From Sphingorhabdus lutea (GTDB taxonomy: Bacteria; Pseudomonadota; Alphaproteobacteria; Sphingomonadales; Sphingomonadaceae), in assembly GCF_001889025.1 (NCBI RefSeq), contig NZ_CP018154.1, positions 1,478,501 to 1,542,500 on the forward strand: 64,000 bases of DNA. The letters are read 5' to 3'. The notes beneath the pieces are model-generated. The model was given only the letters and a program-made list of their open reading frames with translations. It was not told where the DNA came from and ran no database searches. This document shows, in pieces, positions 32,585 through 42,340 of the stretch; the first letter of the stretch is position 1; each line of letters starts with the position of its first letter. The position numbers and the translations under genes were made by a program.

Positions 32585-34228
32585 ATGGTTAAACCAGCCG
32601 ACGAGCTGTTGTTTCTGGCACTTGGTGGGTCAGGCGAAATTGGCATGAATGTCAATCTATATGGGTGTCAGGGCAAATGGATTATGGTTGATTTGGGCCT
32701 TAGCTTTGCCGATCCCTATTATCCTGGCGTTGATTTGGTTTTGCCCGATTTAGAATTTATCGAACAACGCGCCGATGATTTATTAGGGATAGTTTTGACC
32801 CACGGGCATGAGGATCATATTGGAGCCATTCCATATTTGGCGGCGGATTTGGGCGTGCCTTTATATGCGACATCCTTTACCGCTGATTTAATCCGCCGTA
32901 AATTGGATGAGGCTGGGTTGGTTGATCAGGTTGAATTGCATGTGGTTGACCTTGATTCTATTGTCGATTTAGGGCCATTTTCGTGCCAATATATTCCGCT
33001 CGCGCATAGCATTGCGGAGGGCAATGCATTGTTAATCAACACGCCACATGGCCGGATTTTCCACACGGGCGATTGGAAATTGGATGATGATTCCATTATC
33101 AGCAGCCCCGCCACGCAGGAACAGTTAAGTAAAATTGGCGACGAAGGTGTTCTTGCGCTTGTTTGTGACTCTACAAATGCATTTTCAAATGCGGAATCGG
33201 GCAGTGAGGGCGTTGTTCGTGATAATTTAATCGAATTGATTAAAGGGCTTCCCAACCGGATTTTGGTAACCAGCTTTGCATCAAATATTGCCCGATTGGA
33301 CAGTTTGGGTAAGGCAGCAAAGGCGGCAAAGAGGCAATTATGTGTTGCGGGCCGCTCGCTAGATCGAATGATTGAGGTGGGGCAGGCCAATGGTTATTTA
33401 AAGGATTTCCCCGCGACAATAGAATTTGATGAGGCCATGCGCCTGCCCAGAAATCAGGTGATGATTATTGCGACGGGCGGACAGGGGGAACCGCGCGCGG
33501 CATTATCCCGCATTGCCAGCGATACGCACCCGATTAAGGTTGAAAAGGGCGACCATATCCTATTTTCCTCCAAACAAATTCCGGGCAATGAAATTGCAAT
33601 TGGGCGTATTCAAAATGCATTGGCAGAGGCCGATGTGGAAATGATTACCGAAAAACAGGCGCATATCCATGTTTCTGGACATCCTGGTCGGCCAGAGCTT
33701 GTCAAATTCTACCAATGGCTTCGCCCTGAAATATTACTGCCCGTTCATGGTGAAATGCGCCATATGAAGGAACAGGCAAAACTGGGCCGCGAGAATAATA
33801 TATCACAGACAATAGTACAGAAAAATGGCCAATTATTGCGTCTTGCGCCCGGTAAAGCGGTGCATATTTCGCATGAAAGGGCAGGGCGCTTATTATTGGA
33901 CGGTGATATGATTATCGAGGCCGATGGCGCGACAATGAATGAAAGACGTAAACTTTCATTTCATGGCCAGGCAAGTGTTGCATTTTTCATTGGTGAAAAT
34001 GGACGAGTGCAAGGCGACCCGATAATTAGCATGTTAGGCGTGCCATTAGAAATTGAAATTGACGAATTTATGGATGAAGCGGTGGAGGAGTTGAATGAAA
34101 TTCTTCGCGCGTTTAACAAGGGTGACCTTGAAAAATTAAAAGAGAAGATGAGAATAGCTTTACGTAAAATCATCAGGCAATGGACTGGCAAGAAGCCGGT
34201 GGTCACCGTATTGGCAGTCGAGGCATAA
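32585..34228 (+). CDS. rnj: Ribonuclease J
   Basis: The 547-residue metallo-beta-lactamase/beta-CASP ribonuclease has the zinc motif T-H-G-H-E-D-H-I-G with H73, H75, D77 and H78, followed by H-S-I-A-E-G and F-H-T-G-D-W-K. The beta-CASP region carries T-S-F-A-S-N-I-A-R and S-G-H-P-G-R-P-E-L. A C-terminal domain follows. It starts four bases after coaX. Confidence 0.95.
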   Translation: MVKPADELLFLALGGSGEIGMNVNLYGCQGKWIMVDLGLSFADPYYPGVDLVLPDLEFIEQRADDLLGIVLTHGHEDHIGAIPYLAADLGVPLYATSFTADLIRRKLDEAGLVDQVELHVVDLDSIVDLGPFSCQYIPLAHSIAEGNALLINTPHGRIFHTGDWKLDDDSIISSPATQEQLSKIGDEGVLALVCDSTNAFSNAESGSEGVVRDNLIELIKGLPNRILVTSFASNIARLDSLGKAAKAAKRQLCVAGRSLDRMIEVGQANGYLKDFPATIEFDEAMRLPRNQVMIIATGGQGEPRAALSRIASDTHPIKVEKGDHILFSSKQIPGNEIAIGRIQNALAEADVEMITEKQAHIHVSGHPGRPELVKFYQWLRPEILLPVHGEMRHMKEQAKLGRENNISQTIVQKNGQLLRLAPGKAVHISHERAGRLLLDGDMIIEADGATMNERRKLSFHGQASVAFFIGENGRVQGDPIISMLGVPLEIEIDEFMDEAVEELNEILRAFNKGDLEKLKEKMRIALRKIIRQWTGKKPVVTVLAVEA

Positions 34229-34498
34229 ATGAATATAGCATCAATATTGGCGATATATTTTCTTTTTTGGGTGTTATGCGCTTTTTTGGTGCTGCCCTTT
34301 GGAATTAAAAGCCATTTTGAAACGGGCGATGAAATTTTGCCAGGGCATGCGGATGGCGCGCCTGCCAATTTCAAACCGAAAAAAATAATATTCAGAACGA
34401 CAATTTTGTCCGCAATTTTATTTGGCATATATTATGCAAATTATGTTTACGGATGGGTCACGCAGGAAAGTTTCAACTTTCTGTTACTAACCAATTGA
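34229..34498 (+). CDS. DUF1467 small membrane protein
   Basis: The 89-residue protein has two transmembrane helices, L-P-F-G-I-K-S and P-G-H-A-D-G-A-P-A-N-F-K-P-K, all features of the DUF1467 family found downstream of rnj in Alphaproteobacteria. Its start codon follows the rnj stop without a gap. Its stop codon is part of the first unit of a 14-bp tandem repeat. Function unknown. Confidence 0.92.
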   Translation: MNIASILAIYFLFWVLCAFLVLPFGIKSHFETGDEILPGHADGAPANFKPKKIIFRTTILSAILFGIYYANYVYGWVTQESFNFLLLTN

Positions 34499-34591: not shown

Positions 34592-36913
34592 TTATTCGCG
34601 GAATCTTTCAATTGCCTGTGCCAAGGCGACATATAATTTGCCGATATCTGATGATAATAATGTAACGCTTATCGCACCTCCATCCTTGGTGCTCAACACC
34701 AATCGCATCATACTTTCAAAATCATGAATATATCGGTTTACATTATCGTGAAATTCTCCGTCTTCTTCATAATAGGATGCGATAATTTTTGCCTCACTAT
34801 TATCCAGCAAACGAACGGCCCTACGTGTAAACACGCCTCTGTCACCTTTTAAATAAGCGGCCCAGCTGGTATCGGTAACGTCATTGCTTAATATTTTGGC
34901 GACATCAATAGATGTGCTGTTCAATGCCTCGGTCAATAATGCCATGCGGCGGGTAAAATCATTTTCATCGACGCCGCTAAATAATGCTTCATTCTGTTTT
35001 AATCTGGCCTCTAAATTGTCGGTCATTTCTTGAATATAGAGTAATTTTGATTCAAGCCTTTGTGTTGATTGTTCGGTAAGTTCAAGATGCGATGCAAAAA
35101 CATGCTGTGCAGTTTGAGTTATTGTGGCCAATTGTGATTCGGTAGCTGTGGCAATTACTTGTTTATTATCATTGGAAATTTCATGAATAGCTTTGCCGAA
35201 ATCAGCGGTTATTTCGGATTTAAGCTGACCAATTTTATCACCGATATTATGCAATAATGTTGTAATTTCTTCATCGGTTTTGGTCGATAAATGATCTAAA
35301 TTTTTCTGAACATTGCGCATTTCTTTATCGATTAATTTTATATTATTTTCATATTCTTTTATAAAATTAAGATTTTTATCACTCAATTGATCCAGCGAAT
35401 GGGCCTGCGCCTTTGTATCGGCGATAAATGTCTCTGACAGGCGGATTATTTTCTGCGCATTATTAAGTCCCTCAGCCTGTTCTTCATTTAAATTATTCAA
35501 TGCAGATTTCGTTTCTGCAATTTTAATTTTCAGGCGATCATAGCTTGCCGGCAGGCTCTCATCCATTTCACGACTATTGCTGTTTAACGCTTCTAATAAA
35601 TGTTCACATTGTGCAATAAGTGACAAAGTTTGCCGCTCATTATTACTGAATTTTTCGCTAATAATATCATGCTTTTCATCCAATGCAGCCAATGCAAAGG
35701 CCAATTCACCCATTTTGACGCCTGATGATTGAGTCAAATCATTCACTTTTTCAACGGTGGCGGCAAAGGATTGTTCCACTTCGGCAATGGATTGCTCTAA
35801 AACATCCTTACCCTTAAGCGATTCCTCAATAAGATGTGCCTTCTTTTCCGTCAAAGTATTGATATTATTGTTTAATAAATCATTCGCAGCAATATTTTCT
35901 TCGGTCATTTCATCCATGACATTTCGCGTTTTGGCGTGAAGATCTGCTATCATCATGCTAATATTATTAGAAATTTGAGCGATAATATCCTTTGATTGTT
36001 TAACCTGATTAAATAAAGCTTCGCCCTGTTCTTTGCTGCTTTTCTGCCACTGCTCCATTATTTCTAGATTTTTATTACCTAGTGCAACAGATGCATCCTC
36101 CATTGTCTTTGCCTGTGTGGTTAAGGAGGCAAAACTTTCTTTTAATTGGCTTAATTGCGCCTGTGCATTACGACCCGTTGTTCCAATTTGATTGGTCAAA
36201 TCTTTGGTAATATTGGTAATGTTAGGGAGATTTTGTTGTAAAATATCCAAATTTGTTTTGGCAGAATTACTAACCTGTTCCAGTGATTTTGCATGAATAT
36301 CCGTTTGTTCAAAACTGGACGATAATAATGCACCTGATTGTTGCATTTTGGCGGCAACATCATCGGCCAAGCTGATATAGGCCTTACTATGCTCGCTCAA
36401 TAAATTTAATGATGCGGTGATATTTTGATTGATAGAGGACATTTTTTTATCAAGCGCCTCGCTTTCCACTCTTAATTTTGCGGCGACATCTCCAAATATA
36501 ATTGATTCCGCTCGGCTGTTGCGCATGATGAGTAGCCATAAAGCGATAAGCAATATTATAGGCGTGAATAGAGCAGCGGAATATTGCGATAACAAATCGG
36601 GCAGGTGGCCTTGGGCCATGCCGGCTTTCATTTCTGACCATTTATTCCAGATAAAATAGCACGCCCAAATGCTGGCAAGGGAAATAAAAATAAAGGGAAG
36701 AATGAATTTTTTGTAATTTTTTGGTGGCTGAATATATTCATCTTCATATTCGGCATATTTATCGCCCAAATCGACATTTTCAATCACGGGGTCAATTTCT
36801 GGTTCAGAATTTGAATTTATTTTAATATTTTCAGTATGATGTGTGACTTTTTTATTCGGCAAGTCCAAAATTTGGTCGTCATCATTTTGTGAAATTGTGT
36901 CTTTTTGGGCCAT
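34592..36913 (-). CDS. Two-helix membrane protein with long coiled coil, unknown
   Basis: The 773-residue protein has an acidic cytoplasmic N-terminus (residues 1-69), two transmembrane helices (about 70-89 and 112-130) and then about 550 residues of helical, Ser/Gln/Glu-rich sequence with methyl-accepting-protein-like periodicity but no chemoreceptor signalling tip. The last ~120 residues form a distinct domain (D-T-S-W-A-A-Y-L-K-G-D-R-G-V-F-T-R-R ... T-L-L-S-S-D-I-G-K-L-Y-V-A-L-A-Q-A-I-E-R), which looks conserved rather than repetitive. It diverges from an HPt-like gene with a 69-base gap. Possibly a scaffold or polarity protein; function unknown. Confidence 0.8.
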   Translation of the reverse strand: MAQKDTISQNDDDQILDLPNKKVTHHTENIKINSNSEPEIDPVIENVDLGDKYAEYEDEYIQPPKNYKKFILPFIFISLASIWACYFIWNKWSEMKAGMAQGHLPDLLSQYSAALFTPIILLIALWLLIMRNSRAESIIFGDVAAKLRVESEALDKKMSSINQNITASLNLLSEHSKAYISLADDVAAKMQQSGALLSSSFEQTDIHAKSLEQVSNSAKTNLDILQQNLPNITNITKDLTNQIGTTGRNAQAQLSQLKESFASLTTQAKTMEDASVALGNKNLEIMEQWQKSSKEQGEALFNQVKQSKDIIAQISNNISMMIADLHAKTRNVMDEMTEENIAANDLLNNNINTLTEKKAHLIEESLKGKDVLEQSIAEVEQSFAATVEKVNDLTQSSGVKMGELAFALAALDEKHDIISEKFSNNERQTLSLIAQCEHLLEALNSNSREMDESLPASYDRLKIKIAETKSALNNLNEEQAEGLNNAQKIIRLSETFIADTKAQAHSLDQLSDKNLNFIKEYENNIKLIDKEMRNVQKNLDHLSTKTDEEITTLLHNIGDKIGQLKSEITADFGKAIHEISNDNKQVIATATESQLATITQTAQHVFASHLELTEQSTQRLESKLLYIQEMTDNLEARLKQNEALFSGVDENDFTRRMALLTEALNSTSIDVAKILSNDVTDTSWAAYLKGDRGVFTRRAVRLLDNSEAKIIASYYEEDGEFHDNVNRYIHDFESMMRLVLSTKDGGAISVTLLSSDIGKLYVALAQAIERFRE

Positions 36914-36982
36914 ATTCTTTATTTACCATATTTTTTGTTCATGGAAACTGAAACTTAATAAATTTGGTATAGCTATGTCATT

Positions 36983-37282
36983 ATGTCAGTAGCATTTGGA
37001 AATTTCGAAAACTCTTTGAAGGCCGCTTCGGGTGATGACGCAAAATTATTTGCGGAACTTCGCCAGGCCTTTGTGGATAGTGCAAATCGACAGTTGGACT
37101 TGATGACAAGATCAAGATGCGACGCAAATTGGCATCACAGCGCACTTCGTTTACATGGAATAGCTGCTAGTTTTGGGGCAATTTCTGTTATGGAATTGGC
37201 CGATGAGGCAAGCCAAGGGGCGCCCGGCGACCCAGTTATTTTGCGAAAATTAAATGCGGCCATCACCGAAATTTTAAGCTAG
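36983..37282 (+). CDS. HPt-like domain protein lacking the usual phospho-histidine
   Basis: The 99-residue all-helical protein aligns with histidine phosphotransfer domains through A-L-R-L-H-G-I-A-A-S-F-G-A (54-66), which corresponds to the canonical A-H-x-L-K-G-x-A-x-x-L-G-A. In that alignment the phospho-His position is Leu55, and the conserved Lys is His58; His51 and His52 lie just before. Phosphotransfer by the normal mechanism is therefore doubtful. It is the first gene of the plus-strand group 36983-40951, diverging from the coiled-coil gene. Confidence 0.7.
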   Translation: MSVAFGNFENSLKAASGDDAKLFAELRQAFVDSANRQLDLMTRSRCDANWHHSALRLHGIAASFGAISVMELADEASQGAPGDPVILRKLNAAITEILS

Positions 37283-37344
37283 TATTTGCTAATATTATTT
37301 TTGGGGACTAGTTATATTTCCAATATTTTTATTGGAGCATTATC

Positions 37345-38517
37345 TTGTCCGTCACCACCGCGTTAATATCTGTGCATAATTTTATGCAAGATGGGCCGGA
37401 AAGCCTTTCTGCATTGAACAGCATATTTTCTAAAACAGTGGTGGAAGAACAAATTGACCAACTTATACGTTTAAAATTTAAGCGAATTTTTATTTCTGTT
37501 GGCCAAATAACATCAAAATTAACCGACATAATTGATAAATATCAAAGCGGCTCAGTTGAAATTATTTTGATCAGATCTGCCCAAGATTTAAAAGAAAAAA
37601 TCGAAAATCAATCCTTCTTATTAGTGGGCGATTCCATTATCATGGAAGATAACATAATAAACGTATATTGCCTTGCCAATAATGCGAAGAACAAGCTTTT
37701 CCTATTGGATAGTCGCGAAGAAAATGCCGATTTTGAAAGGTTGGATTTAAATAATCGCTGGGCAGGTTTTGCGTTGTTGCAAGGGGATATGCTGTCCAAT
37801 ATTTCCGATGTAGCGGATGATTGGAGTTTAGAATCCATGTTGGTGCGCATCGCAATGCAGCGGTCAATTTCGCATCAGCAATTGCCAAATAATTTAATCA
37901 CTAACGGCCATATCGTCATAGTAAAAAATAAGAATGATATTAAATCCTTAGCGGAAAAGAAATTTAGCAAATTGAAAAATACTGCCTCATCGGGCATTAT
38001 TTTTAATGCAGTCACTTTTTTCTGGTCAAAACATTTTGAGCATTTATTGATCCTACGGCCTGTTAAATTGGCATTACAGATTTTGCCGATTTTATTTTTA
38101 TTATGCGCGTTATCCTTGGCATATTTTTCTTATGCGGAAATGGCATTATTGGCCACATCGCTTGCGGGCATAATATTGGCAAATATGCGATTGATGAATA
38201 AATTGTCGAATGATAAAATTGACGAAAGATTATATAATATATCATTGATTATATTGTTGTTTTTAATATATTTCTTATTATTCAATAATGATTTGCTAAA
38301 CATATATTTTGCGATATTCCTGTCATATATGACTATAGCGGCCATATTTGTTTGTCATATTAAAAAAGAGGGATATTATCATTATATTGACCCGATTTTA
38401 TTGAATATTTGCTCTATAATATGTGCATATTTTGGTTTTCTATTACCATTTATGATGGTCATTATTGCTTTTATCTTCTCCAATTTAATTTGGGATAATG
38501 TAAAAAAACACAAATGA
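37345..38517 (+). CDS. Membrane protein with soluble N-terminal alpha/beta domain, unknown
   Basis: The 390-residue protein starts with TTG at 37345, with GGAG seven bases before it. Residues 1 to ~175 are alpha/beta (A-L-I-S-V-H-N-F ... K-R-I-F-I-S-V-G ... S-F-L-L-V-G-D-S-I-I-M ... F-E-R-L-D-L-N-N-R-W-A-G-F-A-L), loosely like a nucleotidyltransferase (GT-A) fold but without its G-x-G-T-R signature. Residues ~225-385 contain about six hydrophobic helices. No CDP-alcohol phosphotransferase motif was found. It lies 62 bases after the HPt-like gene. Function unknown. Confidence 0.75.
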   Translation: MSVTTALISVHNFMQDGPESLSALNSIFSKTVVEEQIDQLIRLKFKRIFISVGQITSKLTDIIDKYQSGSVEIILIRSAQDLKEKIENQSFLLVGDSIIMEDNIINVYCLANNAKNKLFLLDSREENADFERLDLNNRWAGFALLQGDMLSNISDVADDWSLESMLVRIAMQRSISHQQLPNNLITNGHIVIVKNKNDIKSLAEKKFSKLKNTASSGIIFNAVTFFWSKHFEHLLILRPVKLALQILPILFLLCALSLAYFSYAEMALLATSLAGIILANMRLMNKLSNDKIDERLYNISLIILLFLIYFLLFNNDLLNIYFAIFLSYMTIAAIFVCHIKKEGYYHYIDPILLNICSIICAYFGFLLPFMMVIIAFIFSNLIWDNVKKHK

Positions 38518-38528
38518 ATAAAATGATT

Positions 38529-38558
38529 ATGTCGTTAAAGGCAATTTAACGACATTTT
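38529..38558 (+). terminator. Hairpin with U run inside the signalling cluster
   Basis: An 11-bp perfect stem (38529-38539 with 38545-38555) with a GGCAA loop is followed by TTTG. It lies between the membrane-protein gene and the next gene (stop 38517, start 38586). The U run is short, so it may terminate only partly. Confidence 0.5.
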
Positions 38559-38585
38559 GATATGACATATTAGCAATAATATAGG

Positions 38586-39572
38586 ATGAGCATTTTGTCG
38601 GCAGGACCTGCAAATAATATTTTTTGGGATGAGGTTGTTCAGGACCTTGAAAATGCTGCGCTATGGAACATGCATATTGCGGATTATATTTTCCCGCCCG
38701 CTTCTCCTACTTTCACAGAACAAGACATTGCCAACATCCGGCAGATGATTCAAAAACTATGCCATCAGGCAATATTATTATTGGCCGAACAATCAAATTT
38801 ACAGCTTAGCAACCAAATGATTGCCCATATCGGGCTGAACATGATCCAATTATTTGATAATATTCCAAAGAATTTGAAAAATAAATTGGTTCATTCTGCG
38901 CATAGATTGAGCAGCTATCGCCAAATTGAGCAAAATTGCACGCCTTTATTTGATTGTTCCTCTTTATCCAAATTATTGGATCATAAGGATAATATAGTCC
39001 AAGAAAATGCAGTTAATTTGATGACGGCGATGAGCAGAATTGAGTTAAATCAATCTGTCCTATTATCGGAATTACCAATTGAAGAGGCGCAGGCCATGTT
39101 GGAAATTTCTGCCAATGCAATCATGTTGCAGGGCGAAGATTTTCAAAAAATTACCGATAATGATGTCCGGATTATTTTAACGAAAATATCAAAAATATTA
39201 CCGGTGGAGCATTGCGCAGAATTATTATTTCATCAAATGGAAATATATGATGAGGCGACAGAAATTAAAAAAATATGCCTGCCACTATATATTGTCCATC
39301 TGGCAAAAATAAATCAGTTTAGCTTTATCCAAAATCTCCAGATTTTGGTCAGCTCTGACCCCAAATTAATCTCTTTATTATTATGTTCATCCAATGTGGA
39401 TATGGGCGAGGCAATGCGATTATTGACCCATATTTTTGTTCATGGGGAGCATGACGATTTTTTATATCAATTAAGCGACCAATATGTATCCATAACAGCA
39501 CAGCAAGCGCGTAAAATTTTACTATCCTATTTTGAAAATTCGGCCGCCTATAATTTTGAGCAGGGGGCGTAA
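38586..39572 (+). CDS. All-helical cytoplasmic protein, unknown
   Basis: The 328-residue protein has no signal peptide or membrane helix and appears entirely alpha-helical, with short leucine-rich helix pairs that could be HEAT-like (compare DUF2336-type proteins of Alphaproteobacteria, not confirmed). Its stop overlaps the start of the kinase-like gene by one base (TAATG), implying a functional link. The codon content is AT-rich, like the neighbours in this cluster. Confidence 0.7.
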   Translation: MSILSAGPANNIFWDEVVQDLENAALWNMHIADYIFPPASPTFTEQDIANIRQMIQKLCHQAILLLAEQSNLQLSNQMIAHIGLNMIQLFDNIPKNLKNKLVHSAHRLSSYRQIEQNCTPLFDCSSLSKLLDHKDNIVQENAVNLMTAMSRIELNQSVLLSELPIEEAQAMLEISANAIMLQGEDFQKITDNDVRIILTKISKILPVEHCAELLFHQMEIYDEATEIKKICLPLYIVHLAKINQFSFIQNLQILVSSDPKLISLLLCSSNVDMGEAMRLLTHIFVHGEHDDFLYQLSDQYVSITAQQARKILLSYFENSAAYNFEQGA

Positions 39573-40951
39573 TGGGAAAAAAGTTGATATATTCTCCTCC
39601 ATTGGAATTATTATTGGACGCGAATAATAAAATTATTTTCGCAAGCCCCGAAATTTTGGGTTTGCAAATTGATGCGGGCGGCAAAGAACATGATATTTTT
39701 ATGTTTTATAATTTTGCGTCCCTTGCAAATTTGGTTCGCAAATTAAAAATAAATGTGAATAGGATTTTGAGCATTGCCGTCGATAATATCATTATCGAAA
39801 TGAATGTGGATGTTTCCATCGAAGAAAATTTAACGGGCGGCGATATTGTCAAATTTTTGGTGCATAGCTGGCTGGAGAGAGAAAATCTTTGGTTAGCCGA
39901 TAATGGTGAGTTTGGTCATTTAAATACCGGTTTAATGGGTGCATTATTAGTGACCGATCATCAAAATAGGATTGTCAAAATCATCAATGGAGGTGGTTTA
40001 GAGATTTCAGCAGACGACATAATGGGCAAGGATTTTGGAAATTTATTTCAGATTATTCCCGCTGTTAGGTCGAATATGCAACTGGACCAAATATTCTCCA
40101 GCCATAAAAAGAATGAGAATATCGCTTTGAAATATATGCAAGATAATCGCAATCTGACCGCTGATTTTTTGCCCAATTTTAATGAAGCAAAAATTTTCCA
40201 AGGCTTTCATATAAAATTACGCATTGCCCAAGAAGCAAAAGATATTCTTCATGTTGCGGGACAATTTATTGATGAGGAGCCAGTTCAAATTGGCGCTACA
40301 TTGGCGCCGGCATTGCGCATGCCATTGGGCCGAATTATCGCCAATGCAGAGACAATAAAATCAAAAATATATGGCCCAATTCGTGAAAATTACGCGATTT
40401 ATGCTAGTGATATATCACATGCGGCCAAGCATTTATTGGATTTGGTGGAGGATTTGGGCGATTTGGAATTTATCGAAAAGGCCGGATTTAAAACAGCAAA
40501 AGATAAAATTGACCTATATGATTTGGCTGAACGGGTAAAAGGGTTGCTTGCAGTAAAGGCGAGCGATCATAATAAACGGATAAACATTATTTCAAGTAAT
40601 AAGGCACAGCCCGCCATTGGTGAATTTAGGCGCGTTCTTCAAATTTTGGTGAATTTGGTGAATAATGCCATTCGCTACACGCCCGATGGAGGGGTGATTG
40701 AAATTTTAATCCAAGAAAATGAAAGCCATGCCAAAATCTGCATCATTGATGAAGGTGCAGGCATAGCCGCTGAAGATCAATCTAAAATTTTCAATAAATT
40801 TGAACGACTTGGCCGAACAGGAGATGGTGGCAGCGGACTTGGTCTTTATATTTCACGTAAATTGGCCCGGGCAATGGGCGGCGATTTAAGCGTGAAAAAC
40901 GCCACGGGGAAGGGGTGTGAGTTTACCCTAATTCTTCCCCGCGACATATAA
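39572..40951 (+). CDS. Histidine-kinase-like protein, phospho-His replaced by Pro
   Basis: The 459-residue cytoplasmic protein has PAS-like segments in the N-terminal 230 residues, a dimerisation helix pair and a full HATPase domain: N box Q-I-L-V-N-L-V-N-N-A-I-R-Y-T, D-E-G-A-G-I, F-N-K-F-E-R and G-G-S-G-L-G-L-Y-I-S (from 419). In the H box the canonical S-H-E-L-R-T-P-L reads A-P-A-L-R-M-P-L, so the phospho-His position is Pro246. It probably binds ATP but cannot autophosphorylate at the normal site. No response regulator is next to it. A similar loss is known in DivL, which has Tyr instead. Confidence 0.85.
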   Translation: MGKKLIYSPPLELLLDANNKIIFASPEILGLQIDAGGKEHDIFMFYNFASLANLVRKLKINVNRILSIAVDNIIIEMNVDVSIEENLTGGDIVKFLVHSWLERENLWLADNGEFGHLNTGLMGALLVTDHQNRIVKIINGGGLEISADDIMGKDFGNLFQIIPAVRSNMQLDQIFSSHKKNENIALKYMQDNRNLTADFLPNFNEAKIFQGFHIKLRIAQEAKDILHVAGQFIDEEPVQIGATLAPALRMPLGRIIANAETIKSKIYGPIRENYAIYASDISHAAKHLLDLVEDLGDLEFIEKAGFKTAKDKIDLYDLAERVKGLLAVKASDHNKRINIISSNKAQPAIGEFRRVLQILVNLVNNAIRYTPDGGVIEILIQENESHAKICIIDEGAGIAAEDQSKIFNKFERLGRTGDGGSGLGLYISRKLARAMGGDLSVKNATGKGCEFTLILPRDI

Positions 40952-40958
40952 ATTTTAA

Positions 40959-42242
40959 TTAACGTTGATCAAATCCGACATAATCACGTGTTGCCGGGCC
41001 AGTATAAAGCTGACGCGGGCGGCCGATTTTTTGTTTCGGATCGGAAATCATTTCATTCCATTGCGCAACCCAGCCAACAGTACGTGCCAAGGCAAATAAT
41101 GCTGTGAACATTTCGGTTGGGAAACCAATAGCAGACAAAATAATGCCAGAATAGAAATCCACATTCGGGTAAAGTTTCTTTTCAACAAAATATGGATCGT
41201 TAATAGCAATTTGTTCCAATTCGCGTGCAACATCAAAAATTGGGTCAGTAACGCCTAATTTCTTTAGCACTTCATCAGCGGTTTTTTGCATAACCTTTGC
41301 ACGAGGATCGTAATTTTTATAAACGCGGTGACCAAAGCCCATTAAACGGAATGGATCATTTTTATCCTTTGCACGGGCAATATATTCGGGAATCCGGTCC
41401 ACTGTTCCAATTTCACGCAACATGTTCAGTGCCGCCTCATTCGCGCCGCCATGCGCAGGACCCCATAGGCAGGCAATACCTGCAGCAACGCATGCAAAAG
41501 GATTCGCGCCAGAAGAGCCCGCAAGACGAACAGTCGATGTTGAGGCATTTTGTTCATGATCGGCATGAAGGATGAAAATACGGTCCATTGCCCGTTCAAT
41601 AACGGGGTCAACAACATATTCCTCCGCAGGGACTCCAAAGGTCATGCGCAGGAAATTTCCAGTATAGGAAAGATTATTATCAGGATATAAAAATGGCTGA
41701 CCAATTGAATATTTATATGCCATTGCCGCAATAGTTGGCATTTTGGCGATTAAACGGTGGCTAGAGATTTTGCGATGTTCTGCATCATTAATATCCAAAG
41801 AATCATGGTAAAATGCCGATAAAGCGCCAACAACACCGCACATAACCGCCATGGGGTGGGCATCGCGGCGAAAGCCGGAATAAAATGTCGCCAATTGTTG
41901 GTGCAACATGGTGTGGCGCGAAATTGTATATTCAAAATCGTCAAATTCCTTTTTCTTTGGAAGCTCGCCATTTAATAATAAATAGGCCACTTCCATGAAG
42001 GAGGAGTTTTCTGCCAATTGATCAATAGGATAGCCGCGATGTAACAACACACCTTCGCCGCCGTCAATAAAAGTTAAATTTGAATCGCAACTTGCCGTCG
42101 ATGTAAAGCCCGGATCATAGGTAAAGCAATCGGTTTGGGCATAAAGTTGGCGGATATCCAAAACATCCGGACCCATTGTGCCCTTAATAACTGGCAGGTC
42201 GATTTGCTTATCTCCAAGGTGCAATACAGGGGTGTCACTCAT
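40959..42242 (-). CDS. gltA: Citrate synthase
   Basis: The 427-residue enzyme starts the TCA cycle. N-terminal [50 protein letters not shown] and a C-terminal F-D-Q-R give the type II form. Start 42242 is chosen for GGAG seven bases before; an in-frame upstream start at 42296 would add a hydrophobic stretch. It converges with the kinase-like gene (7-base gap). Confidence 0.97.
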
Positions 42243-42340
42243 CAAAATTCTCCAAAATATATATAGCCCAAGGCATATTATGAATATCCCAATCAATATT
42301 GAGCATATCTCATCATAGCCGATTATGGCGTGTTAAGCCA

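Follow-up and report, generated by a model that had tools for sequence, protein, structure and literature searches.

A sphingomonad locus in which a kinase-like and an Hpt-like protein have both lost the phospho-acceptor histidine, beside a probable cell-pole scaffold

What becomes of a phosphorelay when two consecutive stations lose the histidine that carries the phosphate? The question is raised by a locus of Sphingorhabdus lutea (Sphingomonadaceae), which lies in a stretch of 64,000 nucleotides of contig NZ_CP018154.1 (positions 1,478,501 to 1,542,500), hereafter the window, from a genome of 2.53 Mb in one contig. A preliminary description of this DNA had reported five adjacent genes, and all five open reading frames (ORFs) are present at 34592-40951, between an rnj gene with a small membrane protein gene (presumably of DUF1467 type) on the left and a citrate synthase gene (gltA) on the right. 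We call their products CC (coiled-coil membrane protein), HPT (Hpt-like protein), MEM (membrane protein), HEL (all-helical protein), and KIN (kinase-like protein). Genomes are labelled G and fetched loci L; genus and family are those of the window.

The Pfam matches of KIN are PF02518 (9.9e-27) and PF00512 (0.0016). Its H-box site, SHELRTPL in canonical form, reads A-P246-A-L-R-M-P-L, and in the alignment of PDB profiles the HK853-type structures 2c2a and 5uht carry ISHELRTPL at the region of Pro246. The acceptor histidine is replaced by Pro, Ser, Asn, Arg, Thr, or Lys in 40 of 42 loci of the family (rows gapped at the site were set aside, here and for HPT). The absence of the histidine, which had first been noticed in an alignment made by eye, holds in both the family and the structure alignments and is a family trait. 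The position of the adjoining Glu is taken by Val, Ala, or Ile, and the Thr/Asn site by Gln, Arg, Met, Lys, or Asp, in 23/23 rows; judging from the alignment, the kinase and phosphatase residues are gone as well. The N, G1, and G2 boxes of the HATPase domain are invariant in the same number of rows, and by its motifs KIN should still be able to bind ATP. Its N-terminal region is conserved and of the sensor type.

HPT shows the same kind of change. Its match to PF01627 (E 0.0046, 17.6 bits) lies below the cut-off of 24.6, and its family profile aligns with His-bearing Hpts at an hhalign probability of 92% (E 6.6e-7). The site that reads AHxLKG in these proteins is A-L55-R-L-H-G in the window, and the histidine is replaced by Trp, Tyr, Gln, Leu, Phe, or Met in 36 of 38 family loci, so that the loss reported for the window protein is again a trait of the family. 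All 16 Hpts fetched outside the family carry the histidine. The alignment of the HPT family contains no other conserved histidine able to take a phosphate, and near the lost one it has acquired two invariant motifs, R-x-R-C-D-x-N-W and A-P-G-D-P, which perhaps form a new binding face. The losses in KIN and HPT are more than chance because 40/42 and 36/38 orthologs, respectively, share them. The genome of the window has three further Hpt domains above the cut-off, one of them in an ORF of 146 codons, and living relays therefore run elsewhere in the cell. This intact but histidine-less pair suggests a signalling relay that has turned into a phosphate-free switch.

Could the relay still run through another residue? 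KIN might phosphorylate a different site, such as His287 in the second HisKA helix, which is invariant in 23/23 rows, and the fully kept ATP site would suit such a replacement. We consider this very unlikely. Living relatives that bear the acceptor (L166, L168) have a histidine at the matching place in this helix; His287 therefore did not arise as a replacement, and we rejected it as the new acceptor. The H box has moreover lost its Glu and Thr/Asn, and HPT has no conserved histidine to receive the phosphate.

Conservation of the neighbourhood reaches well past this strain. Of 60 genomes of the family, 39, the window included, have an ortholog of KIN at E ≤ 1e-50, and a long stretch of DNA was obtained for 36 of the KIN-bearing genomes, two others being on short contigs. 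The five genes keep the order CC< HPT> MEM> HEL> KIN> in 32 of these 36 loci (in three of the 32, L044, L045, and L064, HPT or KIN or HEL is broken), and rnj and gltA are also in place in 28/36. Among the exceptions, no HPT was found in L046 and L063, and L059 has HEL and KIN only. A scan of contigs with a single KIN protein returned only unrelated kinases in five loci. As for a partner response regulator at the locus, no gene with a receiver domain lies between rnj and gltA.

Where the set is incomplete, genes disappear together. Within the genus, 16 of the 45 genomes lack KIN. All 16 have full-length CC and MEM; HPT survives intact in one of them (G042) and as a fragment in two others, whereas HEL is intact in none and a fragment in one. 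In the 11 KIN-less loci that we read, all from small genomes (L158-L161, L169-L175), CC and MEM adjoin each other beside gltA, and scraps of KIN persist in two of these loci (L159, L161). The block also breaks in two genomes: HEL and KIN stay together away from CC, HPT, and MEM in G055, and in G108 MEM, HEL, and KIN stay with gltA and CC and HPT with rnj. Together, the breaks and the joint losses indicate that HEL/KIN and CC/HPT are pairs and that CC/MEM is the lasting core.

We then asked whether the block is kept by selection. The ratio of non-synonymous to synonymous substitution rates (dN/dS) ranges from 0.011 to 0.283 over all five genes in eight ortholog pairs (36 of 40 values computable; single values are rough because dS is often above 1), and the proteins are therefore kept. 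For HPT the range is 0.011-0.155, a conservation as strong as that of CC. A phosphorelay that is simply dying after the loss of its catalytic residues would fit the one subclade of small genomes that lacks the three genes and has remnants left. It can hardly account for low dN/dS in pairs that mostly have dS near or above 1, for a five-gene set kept in 32 of 36 loci, or for invariant ATP boxes, and we find it scarcely credible.

The histidine losses can be placed in the history of the family. G051 keeps the histidine in both HPT and KIN, G049 in HPT, and G056 in KIN. In the tree of the CC C-terminal domain, G051 branches first, followed by G047, G049, and G056, and G055 and G108, which lack both histidines, join the rest with support of 88/64. 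With these states, both losses fit one stretch of the tree, within the limits set by moderate support, some long branches, a weak HPT match in G051 (1e-4), and no HPT found in G056. Both acceptor histidines were probably lost in the ancestor of most of the family, with ATP binding by KIN and the folds kept under selection.

The two pairs recur outside the family in histidine-bearing form. Among 72 genomes with the CC C-terminal domain, one per genus, an Hpt profile matched 34; 15 of these have a small stand-alone Hpt ORF, which in 11 is divergent from the CC homolog and at most 1.3 kb away. Since the profile had been built in part from L102, L116, and L117, which are among the 11, the independent count is 8/12. 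The nearest solved structure to the His-bearing Hpts beside the scaffold gene is the histidine phosphotransferase 2ooc (E 1.7e-10), which we take to be ShpA. Elsewhere in the order, outside this family, a DUF2336 gene is found immediately upstream of the best KIN match in 32 of 35 genomes (39 were searched, 35 had a match to the HEL profile, and in the three exceptions the assembly is fragmented and the two genes fall on separate contigs). The H box could be read in 27 of the 32, and the histidine is present in 27/27. As far as synteny tells, a DUF2336 gene and a PAS kinase are an ancient pair, and the KIN lineage derives from such DUF2336-linked kinases.

HEL itself fits this origin by its profile. 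PF10098 (DUF2336) matches 7 of 24 HEL orthologs (best 3e-9), and the HEL family profile aligns with DUF2336 proteins at an hhalign probability of 99.4%. The DUF2336 protein of L176 matches the NCBIfam model of SpbR (E 5.8e-51, 173.7 bits) without reaching the cut-off of 400, and window HEL has no match to that model. By profile, HEL probably belongs with DUF2336, a family for which NCBIfam holds an SpbR model. To judge from a title that an excerpt of PMC12700997 cites (Wang and Bowman 2019), SpbR acts in the development of the cell pole in Caulobacter. In L176-L179 the DUF2336-kinase pair is near flagellar-looking genes (flgK and flgL type, recognised by eye). A flagellar link was tried and rejected: FlhA (PF00771) is in 5/16 KIN-less versus 15/29 KIN-bearing genomes of the genus and is absent from the genome of the window.

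Is the cluster more than frozen gene order? The genes might be together only since the nuo-birA-coaX-rnj ... gltA stretch is frozen, each having its own job. In favour of this, the flanks are equally conserved and a hairpin lies between MEM and HEL. Yet partners move together when the block breaks, in G055 as in G108, where CC stays with HPT; HPT, HEL, and KIN are lost together and CC and MEM remain; and the CC-Hpt and DUF2336-kinase pairs recur outside the family. Passive conservation therefore seems to us quite unlikely.

What, then, do the remaining genes say about function? The preliminary description had found no recognised family for three of the proteins, which no longer stands: profile, synteny, or fold now gives a place to each of CC, HEL, and MEM. 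Of 289 genomes of the class, 109 have the CC C-terminal domain; it ends ORFs of about 380-2750 codons, and it aligns with 12 proteins from outside the family at an hhalign probability of 100%. Two N-terminal membrane segments are predicted in window CC and in 30 others of 35 family proteins, and PF01442 (apolipoprotein-like) matches 12 of 22 CC orthologs, the window protein not being among them. The full-length protein gave PDB profile matches that are coiled-coil noise, and an AlphaFold2 model of the C-terminal piece was poor (predicted local distance difference test, pLDDT, 61.8). Outside the family, the ORF with the CC domain has 878 amino acids in L102 and 2115 codons, the length of GPR, in L103. 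Agrobacterium GPR has two N-terminal membrane segments, an essential C terminus, and the size of the L103 ORF, according to an excerpt of PMC8262873, and a passage of PMC8546619 describes it as similar to TipN. CC is thus a probable TipN/GPR-type scaffold of the cell pole, on the grounds of its architecture and its C-terminal domain. Beside the TipN/GPR-like gene of four loci outside the family (L102, L106, L116, L117) we observed, by eye, mlaE-, mlaF-, and mlaD-like lipid-transport genes.

MEM has the IPCT-DIPPS, or CDP-alcohol phosphatidyltransferase, fold. Its catalytic motif D..DG..AR is found in 0/23 and 0/45 MEM rows versus 7/9 relatives. The nucleotidyltransferase signature GxGxR is likewise in 0/23 and 0/45 rows and also in 0/9 relatives, so that its loss is older. 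A homolog search with the MEM alignment returned at least four proteins, and one started from L041 returned 95. In L203-L211 the neighbours of the living relatives are a nucleotidyltransferase gene and a further CDP-alcohol phosphatidyltransferase, a set that resembles a phospholipid pathway of the inositol type.

On balance we lean, by a little, towards reading the locus as a membrane scaffold module of the TipN/GPR kind with a former phosphorelay attached, acting by phosphorylation-independent contacts. It builds on homology, synteny, the two histidine losses, intact ATP motifs, purifying selection, and the joint loss of HPT, HEL, and KIN. CC and MEM, a dead protein of the IPCT-DIPPS fold, would form a membrane platform at the pole or the division site. 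KIN with its ancient operon partner HEL, and the pseudo-Hpt HPT, an ancient divergent neighbour of the scaffold gene, would be the former relay. ATP, or the N-terminal sensor part of KIN, would gate KIN; the gated protein would change its HisKA/ATPase surface and so take up or let go of a partner, whether HEL, HPT, or a response regulator produced elsewhere; and CC and MEM would tether this switching to the membrane. Polar location, ATP gating, contacts among the proteins, and any effect on division, polarity, or envelope are what we infer from that basis, and KIN switching on a CC/MEM platform is drawn by analogy with TipN and DivL. In Caulobacter the new pole is marked by TipN, which also binds Tol-Pal and lends support to the envelope (excerpt of PMC7403779). 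Of the functions suggested in the preliminary description, a scaffold for polarity or envelope control survives as the best-fitting theme, from the architecture of CC, its class-wide C-terminal domain, and the kinship of HEL with DUF2336/SpbR.

DivL offers another way to read KIN. In Caulobacter this polar pseudo-histidine kinase binds DivK~P without kinase or phosphatase activity (excerpt of PMC4211667), an example of a dead kinase that reads its partner and does not phosphorylate it. KIN could likewise act alone, as a pseudo-kinase sensing the phosphorylated form of a response regulator from elsewhere and reporting it to another kinase, with HPT as a docking remnant and CC as a mere neighbour. 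DivL (4q20) is one of the 60 PDB matches of the KIN profile, and the conserved N-terminal region of KIN is of the sensor type. But the lineage of KIN comes from the DUF2336-linked PAS kinases and not from DivL, as far as synteny tells, and a mere remnant would not explain why HPT is as conserved as CC and is lost jointly with KIN and HEL. We therefore regard this reading as unlikely.

Several observations weigh against the scaffold module that we prefer. Its likeness to TipN and GPR is one of architecture and length, and of 17 distant CC homologs outside the family, 12 have two N-terminal membrane segments and five only one in a simple scan. MEM is absent from locus L051 (G050). By itself, window HEL matches no Pfam family, even with E relaxed to 1 in a search of the whole genome. 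The trio HPT/HEL/KIN is dispensable: of 45 genomes in the genus, 16 have lost it, and in a further three it is decaying. The cluster is also not tied to flagella, as FlhA does not track KIN in the genus.

The features of the locus are listed in the table. The ATG of KIN overlaps the stop codon of HEL. Between MEM and HEL lies a perfect hairpin of 11 bp with T-rich DNA after it, at which transcription of the block may divide in two; this evidence is weak because the pattern scan gave 9 such sites in the region versus 6.2 expected. Weak Pfam matches of the window proteins (ATG17, DHHC, TOG domain) were taken as noise. In most loci of the family, KIN and the citrate synthase gene are convergent neighbours. 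The Caulobacter citrate synthase CitA emerged from a screen in tipN-deleted cells (excerpt of PMC7083601); nothing in our analysis links the gene adjoining KIN to that observation.

Table. Positions in the window of the five genes, their salient features, and the conserved neighbours.
Feature	Position	Strand	Description or basis
rnj (RNase J-type)	32585..34228	+	conserved left neighbour; synteny
Small membrane protein	34229..34498	+	conserved left neighbour; tblastn synteny
CC	34592..36913	-	773-residue membrane coiled-coil protein, probable TipN/GPR-type scaffold; ORF, two hydrophobic N-terminal segments, class-wide C-terminal domain
CC conserved C-terminal domain, about residues 620-773	34595..35056	-	densest invariant alignment columns; hhalign
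CC transmembrane segment 2, residues 112-130	36524..36580	-	hydropathy scan
CC transmembrane segment 1, residues 70-88	36650..36706	-	hydropathy scan
CC/HPT divergent intergenic region, 69 bp	36914..36982	.	sequence
HPT	36983..37282	+	99-residue Hpt-like protein without phospho-acceptor His
HPT Leu55 codon, at His site	37145..37147	+	alignments
MEM	37345..38517	+	390 residues; nucleotidyltransferase-like N-terminal domain, membrane helices, IPCT-DIPPS fold, catalytic motif lost
Terminator-like hairpin MEM/HEL	38529..38555	+	pattern scan
HEL	38586..39572	+	328 residues, all-helical, divergent DUF2336 (SpbR-like)
KIN	39572..40951	+	459-residue pseudo-histidine kinase, HisKA-like with intact HATPase
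KIN Pro246 codon, at H-box His site	40307..40309	+	family alignment and PDB alignment
KIN HATPase domain, residues 353-458	40628..40945	+	N, G1, G2 boxes invariant
Citrate synthase (gltA-type)	40959..42296	-	conserved right neighbour; synteny

A fuller account of the locus is possible, and we offer it tentatively. A complete relay may have been shut at both stations on the same stretch of family history and retained for polarity, as a module gated by nucleotide and free of phosphate transfer. A polar scaffold with an Hpt and an SpbR-like protein with a PAS kinase, both ancient pairs, would have been joined with a dead lipid-synthase fold as a membrane platform. Beside citrate synthase, three dead enzymes would then be the structural parts of a switch built around a scaffold of the TipN/GPR type. 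The His-bearing relatives with the same gene pairs provide a natural before-and-after series on what a phosphorelay does beyond moving phosphate, and the locus would offer a first handle on polarity in sphingomonads. As far as open papers go, the cluster is undescribed; no paper on DUF2336 was found among them, and none of the matches listed concerned TipN in sphingomonads.

Each component resembles a known system and departs from it. CC shares with TipN of Caulobacter and GPR of Agrobacterium the two N-terminal membrane segments, probably a long apolipoprotein-like or coiled-coil helix, a conserved C-terminal domain, and a class-wide family, a likeness of architecture and length, but its synteny couples it to a phosphorelay and a lipid-synthase fold that are both presumably dead. 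HPT is like the stand-alone Hpts of the ShpA type in neighbourhood and probably in fold, its His-bearing relatives beside the scaffold gene matching 2ooc, and differs by the lost histidine and the new motifs RxRCDxNW and APGDP. HEL is akin to SpbR and DUF2336 by its family profile, whereas the window protein is below every Pfam threshold and even the L176 protein stays under the SpbR cut-off. MEM lacks the D..DG..AR that most of its relatives keep, in a fold shared with IPCT-DIPPS and other CDP-alcohol phosphatidyltransferases (4mnd, AF2299). Finally, KIN is, like DivL, an alphaproteobacterial HisKA-HATPase protein without acceptor histidine and, in the case of KIN probably, linked to polarity. 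DivL has Tyr in place of this histidine, whereas KIN has Pro, Ser, Asn, Arg, Thr, or Lys, comes from a DUF2336-linked lineage, and has a His-less Hpt alongside. DivL and other pseudo-kinases are known singly. In the present lineage two successive stations of a relay, the kinase and the Hpt, appear to be dead, and each of them is under purifying selection and lies beside a probable polarity scaffold.

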